From NCBI GenBank assembly GCA_913009415.1, contig CAJVYM010000007.1, positions 1 to 43,184 on the forward strand: DNA of 43,184 bases, written 5' to 3'. Source of the DNA: an uncultured bacterium (GTDB lineage Bacteria > Bipolaricaulota > Bipolaricaulia > UBA7950 > UBA9294). Of the stretch, positions 22,426 through 35,729 are shown piece after piece (within the stretch, counting starts at the first letter, position 1; each line of letters begins with the position of its first letter). The notes below the pieces were generated by a model. The model had not been told where the DNA came from. It saw nothing but the letters and a program-made list of their open reading frames with translations, and ran no database searches. The position numbers and the translations under genes are program-made.

Positions 22426-23332
22426 CGGGATCCCCACCACTTACGTTGACCACGCGCAAGAAAGCACGAACGACCTGTGGGTCAAATTGAGAGCCTGCAT
22501 TCTTTTTTAGCTCAGCAATCGCTGTTTCCTTGGAAAGGGCCTTTCGATACGGCCTGTCGGAGACCATCGCATCGTACGCGTCGACGACAGCGATGATCCG
22601 CGCCTCGATCGGAATGTCATCACCGGCAAGGCCGCGCGGATATCCACTCCCGTCGTAGCGCTCGTGATGAGCACGCACTACCTTCGCTGCATCGCGTAGG
22701 AATTCCTTGCCCTCGAGCATCCGCGCACCGTACTCGGGATGCCTGCGCATCTCCACCCATTCCTCATCTGTTAGAGGCCCTGGCTTATTAAGAATCTCAT
22801 CCGGAACCTTGACCTTACCGACATCGTGCAGGTACGCGGCATACGAGAGGGTGATCAACTGATCGCCGTTCAGATTGACCTTCTCGCCTGTTGCAATCGC
22901 CAACCGCTCCAGGCGATGACAATGCCCTTCCGTTTCCTCGTCCTTCTCCTCAACCGAGCGTGCAAGCTCCAGGATCTCTTGGATCTCATCGCGCATTAGG
23001 TGGAAGCTCGGGGGAGAGGAGATCAGGAGAAGTTCAACGTCCTGTTCCACCTGGAAATGGGCCCGTTGTGAGAGACCGTGATGATAGATATAATCGCCGA
23101 CGTGCAGGAGAACATCATCATCCGTAATACGCAGCACACCACTGAGAACGTAGATGAATTCAAAGCCTTCCCAGTCACTCGCCGCATCGAGGTAAAAATA
23201 TTTCCCGGCAGGTATGTGCTGCCGGGTAACATCGAACGCTCCTTGCTGAACGAGTAGGTCCAGCGTGGTCGCCTTCTTCCCTATATGCTCTCGCCGGTCA
23301 GATTTCCGAACGATCGTTAAGCCCGCGGCCAC
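22415..23332 (-). CDS. Cupin-HD-GYP protein
   Basis: A 305-residue protein with an N-terminal cupin-like barrel (about 30-105: IPAGKYFYLDAASDWEGFEFIYVLSGVLRI, VGDYIYHHG) and a C-terminal HD-GYP domain (about 125-300). The latter contains YLHDVGKVKVPDEILNKPGPL, HPEYGARML, HHERYDGSGYPRGLAGDDIP and VVDAYDAM. HHERYDGSGYP is the H-H-E-x-x-D-G-x-G-Y-P motif that marks HD-GYP phosphodiesterases of cyclic dinucleotides. The cupin probably senses a small ligand. The combination suggests a one-component sensor whose output is cyclic dinucleotide hydrolysis. Located between a small membrane protein and a secreted peptide. Confidence 0.85.
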   Translation of the reverse strand: MAAGLTIVRKSDRREHIGKKATTLDLLVQQGAFDVTRQHIPAGKYFYLDAASDWEGFEFIYVLSGVLRITDDDVLLHVGDYIYHHGLSQRAHFQVEQDVELLLISSPPSFHLMRDEIQEILELARSVEEKDEETEGHCHRLERLAIATGEKVNLNGDQLITLSYAAYLHDVGKVKVPDEILNKPGPLTDEEWVEMRRHPEYGARMLEGKEFLRDAAKVVRAHHERYDGSGYPRGLAGDDIPIEARIIAVVDAYDAMVSDRPYRKALSKETAIAELKKNAGSQFDPQVVRAFLRVVNVSGGDPDVA

Positions 23333-23360: not shown

Positions 23361-23558
23361 TCAACCACCACCGACGTGGATCGGGCTGCTGTCCGTGGTC
23401 AATCGCGGCCCACCGCCGACATGTATCGGGCTGGATGAAGTGAGCCTCGGTCCTCCACCGACGTGAATCGGATTGGCCGACACTGTTACTGCCGCAATGG
23501 CGACAAATAAAGACACCACCATCACGATCAAGAGTAACGTTTTCGCAAGTCGCTTCAT
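23361..23558 (-). CDS. Secreted repeat peptide
   Basis: A 65-residue precursor. A 28-residue signal peptide (basic MKRLAK, long hydrophobic core, VSA cleavage site) leads to a mature 37-residue peptide made of three PIHVGGG units, the first two followed by PRLT, separated by SSS and TDSS. There are no Cys residues. ATG 23558 has AGGAGG upstream; an earlier in-frame ATG (23606) would bury the signal peptide. The product is exported, possibly processed into short peptides or metal-binding through its regularly spaced His. I do not recognise the family. It is 28 bp downstream, in map order, of the start of the HD-GYP gene and on the same strand. Confidence 0.7.
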   Translation of the reverse strand: MKRLAKTLLLIVMVVSLFVAIAAVTVSANPIHVGGGPRLTSSSPIHVGGGPRLTTDSSPIHVGGG

Positions 23559-23746
23559 TTTCGTGCCTCCTTGCTCTTGAGATTTCAATTTTATTATGCC
23601 TAGCAAGAGTATGTCTTAGACATCGGTGGCGCAAACCCGCAATCCATTCGTTATTCAATATCATTACGTAGTCCATTTTCATAACAGGCTCTAGCATATC
23701 TCCCCTGACGTCGCAACGCAAACGATAGATTCCCCCAAGAGCGCCT

Positions 23747-24955
23747 TTAGAGATTCCTCATCCCACGCACGGCAAGTGCCCCTAGGCCCGCAAGCGCGGC
23801 CGCAATCCCGCACGCAACGATGATCGTCGGCGCGGTGATTAGGGTGAGGATCGCGCCGGTGGCAGCAAGGGAGATCGGCTGCAGACCGTCGGTGATCGCC
23901 GACTGCGCCGCGAAGACGCGCCCTTGCAGCGCGTTTGGCACGCGCGTCTGGAAGATGACCGCCTCAATGATGTTGACGATCGCCACGGCAAAGCCGACCA
24001 ATCCCAGCGAGACGACTGAAAGGCTCATCCCCCGCGACAGCCCGAATACTGAGAGCATCGCTCCAAGGAGGGTTAACCCGCCGATGATCAGCAGACCGTG
24101 GCGCCGCAAACGCTTCATCCGGGCGGTGAGCAGACCGCCGATGACTATCCCCACGGATAGAGCGGAGCCGAACAGGCCAAACCCGCGTGCACCTGCATGG
24201 AGAACATCCTTGGCCATTATCGGAAAGAGGATGCTTGTCGGGGCGAGGATGAAGTTTATGAGAGCAAAGAGGAGGAGCATGAAGAACAGGACCTTACGCT
24301 CGTAGAGGAACCTGAAACCGATGGCGACATCGGAGAAGACCGAACTCAAGCCTTTCCCCGCACGCATTCGCGGTGAGGGGAAGGAGGATGCAAGAAGAGA
24401 GAGCGCGGCGATCAAGAACGTGAACGCATCGACCCACATCGTCGGACCGCTCCCGATCATCCCAACAAGTATTCCCCCGACCGCTGGTCCGGCGATCCCG
24501 GCGGCACCTGCAGAAATCTGATAGAGGGAATTCGCCTTCGTCAACTGTTCCCCTGGCACCAGGTTGGGGATCGAAGATTGAAGCGACGGACGATGGAAGA
24601 GAGTCGCCGTGGAGGCAAGAGCGGTGAAGAGGTAGATCTCCCACACCTGCAATCTACCGATCAACAGTAGAGTGGCCGCGGTACCTATGATGATACCGTT
24701 CACCAAGTCCATCGCCAGCATCAGCTTGCGGCGGTCGAGCCGATCGATGAATACCCCTGCGATCGGTCCAAGAAAGAGGGTTGGAAGGGCCGAAGCAATG
24801 GCCACACCAGCAAGTGCGGCCGCTGATCCGGTCTTCTCAAGCACCCACCACAGAAGCGCGATGTAGGTCAACCGGCTGCCAAACATCGAGAGGCTCTGCC
24901 CTGCCCAGACAAGGACGAAGTTACGATTCCGCCATAAAGGTGTGTTATTGTTCAT
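23747..24955 (-). CDS. Major facilitator superfamily exporter
   Basis: A 402-residue transporter with about 12 hydrophobic helices, beginning MNNNTPLWRNRNFVLVWAGQSLSMFGSRL. The helix 2-3 loop contains the FIDRLDRRKLM motif of MFS drug/siderophore exporters of the EntS (MFS_3) type. Substrate unknown. The open frame extends upstream to 25099, but that part is antisense to the PFOR upstream region, and the first membrane segment follows ATG 24955 at the normal distance. Confidence 0.85.
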   Translation of the reverse strand: MNNNTPLWRNRNFVLVWAGQSLSMFGSRLTYIALLWWVLEKTGSAAALAGVAIASALPTLFLGPIAGVFIDRLDRRKLMLAMDLVNGIIIGTAATLLLIGRLQVWEIYLFTALASTATLFHRPSLQSSIPNLVPGEQLTKANSLYQISAGAAGIAGPAVGGILVGMIGSGPTMWVDAFTFLIAALSLLASSFPSPRMRAGKGLSSVFSDVAIGFRFLYERKVLFFMLLLFALINFILAPTSILFPIMAKDVLHAGARGFGLFGSALSVGIVIGGLLTARMKRLRRHGLLIIGGLTLLGAMLSVFGLSRGMSLSVVSLGLVGFAVAIVNIIEAVIFQTRVPNALQGRVFAAQSAITDGLQPISLAATGAILTLITAPTIIVACGIAAALAGLGALAVRGMRNL

Positions 24956-25086
24956 CGGCGTTACATTAAAGTATATCGACTCCTGTTCTCCAATCAAACC
25001 TTTGGAGGGAGCCCAGAAACAATCGCCGCTTTTATCGGCCCTCGAAGCCAATGGCTGCAGTCCAGGTAAGAAGGTTCGTCTCCTCG

Positions 25087-25115
25087 TTGTGCAAGGCAAA
25101 GTGGAGGGTTACAAT
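25087..25115 (+). promoter_or_regulatory. Putative promoter of the PFOR gene
   Basis: TTGTGC (25087-25092), 17-nt spacer, TACAAT (25110-25115). A second AT-rich hexamer TATAAA at 25131-25136 could serve an alternative start. AGGAGG at 25151-25156 is the ribosome site. Confidence 0.45.
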
Positions 25116-30764: not shown

Positions 30765-32354
30765 TTAACCTTCTTTGTAGAGGTTATAGAAATTAGGCAT
30801 TCGTTCGAGCATCGGGTTGTACGTCTCAGCAAAGCCCTTCACCCAATCGCGCATGGCGAGGAAGCGCTCATTCTGATAGACGAAGATCCAAGGAGCATCG
30901 CTCACGATCAGCGCCTGTGCCTGCATGTAAAACTCAACGCGTTTCTGGTGGTCCGTCGCGACCTGTGCGGCGGCAAGAGCTTTGTCCAGAACCGGGTTCG
31001 AATAATACGTAGCGTTCCCAGGCGTTCCCCAGTTTTGCGTAGCGAACATCGAGAACACGTAGTCATCAGGGTCGGCGTAATCCGGGACCCAACCCCAGGC
31101 GAAGACCTCTGGTGCATCTTTCCAACCGTTCGTCACCTGCTGGTAGAAGGCGGCATGCGTGTACCCCTGAATCTTCAGGGTTACTCCAAGCTCCTGGAGA
31201 GCAGCCTGCAAGGCAAGACCGAGCCGGCGGTTGATGTCGCTTCCAGTGTAGTAAGCGAACGTAAGCGTGAACCCACCATCCGGATATCCGGCGGCCGCCA
31301 TCAGCGCCTTCGCCTTCTTGAGGTCGGTCGGATACATGAACAGGTTATCATCATGTCCCCATAGACCCTTCGGCACAGGGCCCTGGAGGAGCATTGCGTT
31401 CCCCCTTAGTACACCCTGCAGCACTCCCGCGTAGTCGAAGGCATAGGAGAAGGCCCGACGGATCAACGGGTTATCGGTGTACTTCTTCTGGCAGTTGAAA
31501 CCGATGTAGGTGATCGCCAAGCTGGGACCCTTGAAGATCGTCACTCCGGGCTTTCCCCGCATCGCTGGGATCTGATCGACATCGATCCCGCCCGCGATGT
31601 CTATGTCCCCACGTTGAAGCATCATCTTCTGGTCGGAGACTTCGGTCACCGGCTTTATGATAACGGTCGAGACGTGCTTTCCACCCCAACCTTGCCAGTA
31701 GTCGGCGAATTTCTTTAAGACAACCTGTACGTTCGGTACCCACTGCGTCATGACATAAGGCCCAGAACCGGCGTCGTTCTTCTGCAGCCACGCCTGCCCG
31801 AGGTCACCATTTGTCTCGTGTGACATTACGAGGGTCGAGTTCATGATCGATCCACCCACGTAGGCGATCGTGTACAGGAACGGCGCGTATGCGTGCGTCA
31901 GGGTGATCTGCACGGTGTAGGCGTCGATCACTTTCACGCTGTTGAGGTCAAGATCCTGCGTGTAGATCCAGGACGGCCCCTTGTTGATCTTGAGCATTCG
32001 GTCGAAGCTGAACTTCACATCCTTGGCTGTGACTTCCGTACCATCGTGGAACTTGACCCCTTTGCGGAGGTAGAACGTGTACGTCTTACCATCCGTGGAG
32101 ATGTCCCATTTTGTCGCCAATCCTGGTATCAAGTCAGTACTCGCGCCGTTGTAGCGCACGAGCCGATCGTAAACATTCTGCACCACCCGTGCGGCTTCGA
32201 CATCGTAGCCGATGGACGGATCCACTGTATCCACGCCACCGTAGGCAGCCCAGATCAATGTGTCTGGGTTTGGAACGGTTTTTGCTAAACCCACAACACC
32301 GACAATCAGGGCTAACAGTGCGATCAAACTAACACCAACAACTAGCTTCTTCAT
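30765..32354 (-). CDS. ABC transporter substrate-binding protein, peptide/nickel (DppA/SBP_bac_5) family
   Basis: A 529-residue exported protein. The signal peptide is MKKLVVGVSLIALLALIVGVVGLAKT without a lipobox Cys, so it is not a lipoprotein by sequence. DPSIGYDVEAARVVQNVYDRLV, the family motif YTFYLRKGVKFHDGTEVTAKDVKFSFDRML and the C-terminal DAPWIFVYQNERFLAMRD fit the SBP family 5 (oligopeptide, dipeptide, nickel). The ligand cannot be read from sequence. It is first in the operon, behind a strong promoter, followed by a hairpin and the two permeases. Confidence 0.92.
   Translation of the reverse strand: MKKLVVGVSLIALLALIVGVVGLAKTVPNPDTLIWAAYGGVDTVDPSIGYDVEAARVVQNVYDRLVRYNGASTDLIPGLATKWDISTDGKTYTFYLRKGVKFHDGTEVTAKDVKFSFDRMLKINKGPSWIYTQDLDLNSVKVIDAYTVQITLTHAYAPFLYTIAYVGGSIMNSTLVMSHETNGDLGQAWLQKNDAGSGPYVMTQWVPNVQVVLKKFADYWQGWGGKHVSTVIIKPVTEVSDQKMMLQRGDIDIAGGIDVDQIPAMRGKPGVTIFKGPSLAITYIGFNCQKKYTDNPLIRRAFSYAFDYAGVLQGVLRGNAMLLQGPVPKGLWGHDDNLFMYPTDLKKAKALMAAAGYPDGGFTLTFAYYTGSDINRRLGLALQAALQELGVTLKIQGYTHAAFYQQVTNGWKDAPEVFAWGWVPDYADPDDYVFSMFATQNWGTPGNATYYSNPVLDKALAAAQVATDHQKRVEFYMQAQALIVSDAPWIFVYQNERFLAMRDWVKGFAETYNPMLERMPNFYNLYKEG

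Positions 32355-34163: not shown

Positions 34164-35729
<1,566 letters not shown>

Follow-up and report, generated by a model that had tools for sequence, protein, structure and literature searches.

A repeat peptide encoded beside a cupin–HD-GYP protein in Bipolaricaulota is a candidate multi-copy pheromone precursor

Multi-copy Phr pheromone precursors appear to be the closest working analogue of the locus described here. In Bacillus, Phr precursors are reported to carry 1–4 identical or near-identical pheromone copies, the tested copies are functional, and conservation falls on the units and not on the linkers between them (PMC11343458). Rap–Phr systems of the RRNPPA type pair a Sec-exported precursor of about 50–120 amino acids with an adjoining gene for a cytoplasmic partner; the short unit is typically C-terminal, some precursors are multi-copy, and output proceeds through binding of response regulators or DNA. 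SHP/Rgg signaling likewise places a short peptide signal beside a receptor gene and relies on uptake by an oligopeptide permease, but SHPs are single-copy, are exported mature by PptAB without a cleavable signal peptide, and act on Rgg receptors that are transcriptional regulators (PMC7564271).

We analyzed a 43,184-nucleotide stretch of DNA from an uncultured Bipolaricaulota bacterium (contig CAJVYM010000007.1; hereafter the window) in which a gene for an exported repeat peptide adjoins a gene, c1, that encodes a degenerate cupin joined to an HD-GYP domain. The locus resembles Rap–Phr in that an exported precursor gene sits next to the gene of a partner that looks cytoplasmic, the unit is C-terminal and sometimes repeated both in the window's family and in outgroups, and the units rather than the linkers are conserved. 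It differs in its P-I-x-V-G-G unit, in its occurrence mostly outside Bacillota, and in an expected c1 output of c-di-GMP turnover. The c1 protein also departs from RRNPPA receptors, since a Pfam scan detects no TPR family and its predicted model is a beta barrel with HD helices, and we therefore reject RRNPPA membership. We file the pair, which would work like RRNPPA signaling yet lacks the defining receptor, as a candidate peptide pheromone precursor with a co-encoded cytoplasmic partner. Compared with HD-GYP c-di-GMP phosphodiesterases (4mcw; PA4781, 4r8z; DvhD, 9rbz), c1 carries the same complete domain by both sequence and fold, but its N-terminal domain is a cupin without the usual metal-binding histidines instead of a receiver, PAS or GAF domain, and it has a constant adjoining propeptide gene.

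The repeat peptide and its cupin–HD-GYP neighbor

A sequence-only reading of this DNA had described an exported peptide with three PIHVGGG repeats, which proved correct: the open reading frame lies at exactly 23558..23361 (-) and encodes MKRLAKTLLLIVMVVSLFVAIAAVTVSA followed by NPIHVGGGPRLTSSSPIHVGGGPRLTTDSSPIHVGGG (65 aa), with 37 mature residues after an A-x-A site (Table 1). That reading knew of no described family, in agreement with our finding of no match above cut-off to Pfam, NCBIfam or PHROGs profiles and none in the papers searched. In nearly all relatives unit 1 starts one residue past an A-x-A-like site, and a strong Shine-Dalgarno sequence precedes the family homologues wherever the contig includes the gene start. 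The repeat is independently detected in the DNA as three copies of 24 nt with spacings of 45 and 42, the copies being 83–88% identical to the reference copy. The promoter-like site upstream is a consensus match only, one of 3 such sites found in the region versus 0.8 expected. A complete bacterial 16S rRNA gene at 34164–35729 (-) of the window is useful for placing the MAG.

Table 1. Coordinates of the repeat peptide, its expression signals and c1 in the window
Feature	Position	Strand	Basis or remark
Exported repeat peptide gene, 65 aa	23361..23558	(-)	Open reading frame and homologues in 22 family genomes
Predicted Sec signal peptide, residues 1–28, cleavage between VSA and NP	23475..23558	(-)	Read from sequence
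Unit 1, PIHVGGG	23451..23471	(-)	
Unit 2, PIHVGGG	23409..23429	(-)	
Unit 3, PIHVGGG, C-terminal	23364..23384	(-)	
Shine-Dalgarno AAGGAGG of peptide gene, just 5′ of ATG	23566..23572	(-)	
Promoter-like site AAGACA-18-TAAAAT, further upstream of Shine-Dalgarno	23588..23617	(-)	Consensus match only
c1, degenerate cupin and HD-GYP protein, 305 aa	22415..23332	(-)	Starts 28 nt after peptide stop
c1 N-terminal cupin domain, ~residues 1–112, putative peptide-sensing	22997..23332	(-)	Fold prediction and Foldseek
c1 HD-GYP domain, HD, HHE and GYP motifs intact	22445..22978	(-)	PF13487 5e-46; 4mcw 3.6e-37

The predicted c1 model has a mean pLDDT of 86, and the cupin assignment draws on a weak, below-cut-off Pfam Cupin_2 match together with Foldseek matches to cupins. 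The cupin retains Glu58, an invariant residue that occupies the position of the motif-1 Glu. Residues H169, D170, K173, H198, H223, E224, G230, Y231, P232 and D254 are invariant, and the HD-GYP motifs and metal ligands are conserved across 30 aligned proteins with one exception, a truncated copy in genome G006 that is missing the first-helix His. The c1 product is predicted to be a c-di-GMP phosphodiesterase-type protein that should break down c-di-GMP; the window's genome encodes three GGDEF proteins. A cyclic-dinucleotide sensor had been noted beside the peptide; this neighbor is refined here to a degenerate-cupin and HD-GYP protein, whose constant partnership with the peptide the earlier reader did not see.

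Selection on the repeated unit

Searching 84,980 species genomes with the peptide recovered nine relatives, seven of them from Bipolaricaulota or Bipolaricaulis, and a search of 60 related genomes identified homologues with 2–5 units in 22 genomes of one Bipolaricaulota family, the window's genome included. The unit repeated in each precursor is a version particular to it, and the versions differ between lineages, including PIHVGGG (3 or 4 copies), PIHVGGS (4 copies), PVHIGGS/PVHVGGS/PIHIGGS (2 copies), PINVGGT (4 copies), PINVGGL (5 copies), PINVGGE (3 copies), PIQVGGT (3 copies), PIEVGGE (2 copies) and PIHVPGGP (2 copies). All copies within one gene change in step between lineages, and linker length is free to range between 2 and 32 residues. 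In all family members the last unit forms the C-terminus or ends no more than 4 residues from it.

This unit diversity bears on the idea, also raised from the window sequence, of a small metal-binding peptide. Its His and Gly amides would then act as in a copper-binding octarepeat, and the regularly spaced His-x-Gly-Gly of the window version fits such a role, but related precursors replace the His with N, Q, E, S, T or K and keep the rest of the unit, and no metal genes are conserved near the peptide in the loci compared. Because the His is dispensable in related units, we consider metal binding highly improbable and reject membership among metal-binding His-Gly repeats, whose His ligand is not conserved here.

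Comparison of copies within the same gene (23 genes, 72 units) revealed 281 synonymous and 5 non-synonymous codon differences, where random single changes would be expected to be 28% synonymous. Third positions differed in 286 of 588 comparisons (49%), first positions in 13 and second positions in 11; pairwise unit comparisons share branches and these counts are thus not independent events, but the contrast is too large for this to alter the conclusion. Given the extent of third-position divergence and the ratio of synonymous to non-synonymous differences, the copies are old at the DNA level yet held identical in protein. Units differed by a mean of 0.06 residues per 7-mer within a gene versus 1.43 between genes, a value as low as the former being reached in 0 of 10,000 permutations. 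These comparisons show, at the level of sequence, that the repeat peptide is a real gene with units under purifying selection. The probability of a chance or decaying reading frame that happens to carry a DNA repeat is accordingly vanishingly small: the codon-difference counts refute it, conservation in 22 genomes with Shine-Dalgarno sequences speaks against it, and we found no point in its favor. The sequence-only reading had tied such decay to a failure of relatives to maintain both repeat number and sequence; unit sequence is maintained, but relatives carry anywhere between 2 and 5 copies.

Unit identity within genes combined with shifts between lineages is the pattern that would be expected of copies that all have to match a single evolving partner, and the 281:5 ratio together with lineage-specific units would, if the pheromone reading is true, provide a clean natural data set for pheromone–receptor co-evolution. 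Two contigs of genome G014 terminate near repeat peptides (L050:8153-8344 and L051:8034-8225) that have identical repeat DNA and different signal peptides, probably tandem or strain copies collapsed in assembly.

Pairing with c1 within and beyond the family

The peptide gene is apparently the first gene of an operon with c1, lying on the same strand at a spacing of 28 nt in the window and 22–300 nt in relatives with both genes on the contig. This is the most constant pairing of the peptide, with order and strand conserved: both genes are present in 22 genomes of the family tally, and in 11 genomes both are absent or c1 is damaged. In G006 (L090:3822-4628), no peptide gene lies upstream and the HD domain of c1 has lost 33 residues through an in-frame deletion, apparently a case of joint decay.

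On the other side of the peptide, a PFOR gene is also frequent in synteny and is divergently transcribed. An MFS_3-type transporter gene (23747-25099, -) lies directly upstream on the same strand in the window, and likewise in this genus and several others. The MFS neighbor noted earlier is present, but among the loci compared it adjoins the peptide in just 9, and whether or not the system includes the transporter, c1 is the steadier neighbor. These nine loci and the small size of the exported peptide would suit a secreted antimicrobial or toxic peptide of bacteriocin type, with c1 or the MFS protein providing regulation or immunity and export. We judge this very unlikely, as the loci contain no immunity-like gene, c1 and not the MFS gene is the constant companion, and the unit has no cationic or amphipathic character and no database match.

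The c1-like proteins of other Bipolaricaulota families follow exported propeptides of 66–123 aa with one terminal unit, ending for example in FDPIHVVGG, FDPIHIGGSGG, FDPINIID, VDPIHVTK or DNPISIGGSGQN. Genome G096 encodes tandem propeptides ending in FDPPKLIG and FDPPTLIG upstream of a single cupin-HD-GYP-GGDEF gene (L095:4894-5683); a second pair in the same genome (L094) ends in FDPINIID, a unit type unlike that of the tandem pair. A propeptide-body profile searched against 100 genomes gave eight matches, of which seven were strong and all lay next to c1-like genes or at the end of a contig, with the eighth being weak (E 0.006) and located within an unrelated 277-aa frame. One strong match, in G089, ends in FDPIHVIGG, and the G089 c1 gene starts at that same end of the contig. 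No recognizable peptide accompanies two or three c1-like genes (G054, G048:C10 and G039, the flank of the last being masked). From these comparisons, the repeat array found in the family of the window looks like a C-terminal peptide that has been multiplied. Several outgroup c1-like proteins are extended by GAF and GGDEF domains; the GGDEF fusions (L093:3907-5937, L094:4278-7277, L095:5756-7780, L099:3459-5948 and L101:1333-3045) mostly have a GAF domain in between, and they may place both breakdown and synthesis of c-di-GMP behind one peptide-paired cupin.

The single-unit precursors also weigh on a further explanation, which casts the repeat protein as an exported effector, such as a surface, envelope or matrix component or a protease substrate, whose repeats bind an outside partner; c1 would then share no more than its regulation, and the cupin would sense a different cue. 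c-di-GMP enzymes often control surface proteins, tight operon pairing fits a regulator plus its output equally well, and identical units are expected of any multivalent binder. Outgroup precursors, however, keep one unit at the extreme C-terminus of different bodies, an arrangement that is pheromone-like and not multivalent adhesin-like, and the unit diversifies between lineages while the c1 pairing persists. We consider an exported effector rather unlikely.

The cupin also occurs beyond the phylum. A search of plasmid records with the cupin domain returned only one match, an 809-kb plasmid of Peptoclostridium acidaminophilum DSM 3953 (NZ_CP007453.1) encoding an HD-GYP protein that carries this cupin (30% identity, E 4e-8). 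An exported 112-aa propeptide ending in IDPMTVH (gene EAL2_RS11110), annotated as 'hypothetical protein', is encoded 25 nt past this gene (L116:4995-6270), so that the pair has the architecture found in Bipolaricaulota with the gene order reversed. The propeptide has no detectable homology to the Bipolaricaulota propeptides (hhalign probability 3%). We found no cupin-domain relatives in viral contigs or phage records. With the P. acidaminophilum pair, tests could be run in a cultured host.

A candidate route from secreted peptide to c-di-GMP

On balance, we lean towards reading the repeat peptide as a Phr-like multi-copy pheromone precursor whose co-encoded receptor or effector would be the cupin–HD-GYP protein and not a TPR protein. 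Phr counts in favor of this reading as a precedent for a multi-copy pheromone precursor. The suggestion that the precursor is cut into identical short peptides gains good comparative support from the identical units in each gene, their concerted change between lineages, the free linkers and the single C-terminal copy in outgroups. For the steps after translation, we infer that the propeptide would leave the cell through Sec, and that signal peptidase, followed by other proteases, would release from it several copies of a short peptide close to [D]P-I-x-V-G-G-x, which would serve as a cell-to-cell or self-sensing signal for co-encoded c1. Some SHPs likewise have Asp at the start and Val-Gly-Gly at the end. 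Since c1 looks cytoplasmic, re-import of the mature peptide must be assumed, presumably through an Opp-type oligopeptide permease, after which binding to the cupin domain would change c-di-GMP phosphodiesterase output. In an AlphaFold2 prediction of a read-through peptide–linker–c1 chain from G023 (TAG read as Gln), the peptide is disordered with a pLDDT of about 25.

We compared unit residue 3 with the columns of the c1 alignment and observed that cupin position 49 tracks it best. Asp49 accompanies 19 of 19 His units and Tyr, Phe or Thr accompanies 7 of 8 non-His units, the exception being an Asn unit with Asp49 at L094; two further loci agree (His/Asp in G089 and Thr/Ser in P. acidaminophilum). 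Some HD-domain columns correlate with unit residue 3 nearly as well. Phylogenetically independent contrasts number just 2–3, with which a sign test is unable to reach significance, and enrichment of cupin over HD columns is not above control, being also seen for purely phylogenetic labels; for these reasons the coupling of His with Asp49 is suggestive only.

It is quite possible, if short of probable, that these pairs represent a categorically new class of peptide signaling that spans two or more phyla. Its exported PIxVGG-type pheromones, multi-copy in one family, would be read directly by cupin-HD-GYP(-GGDEF) enzymes, and a peptide quorum signal would in this way set c-di-GMP without a transcription factor. 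The papers searched contain no cupin–HD-GYP pheromone system and no peptide pheromone tied to a cupin–HD-GYP protein. If true, the proposal would give Bipolaricaulota, an uncultured phylum, a peptide pheromone system where those papers describe none, and would directly link a secreted peptide to c-di-GMP turnover, two signaling worlds that they do not join. The window's genome has 13 SBP_bac_5 matches, which makes re-import possible, and one SBP_bac_5 oligopeptide-binding protein gene, at 31026-32132 (-) about 8 kb from the peptide, is a possible importer component.
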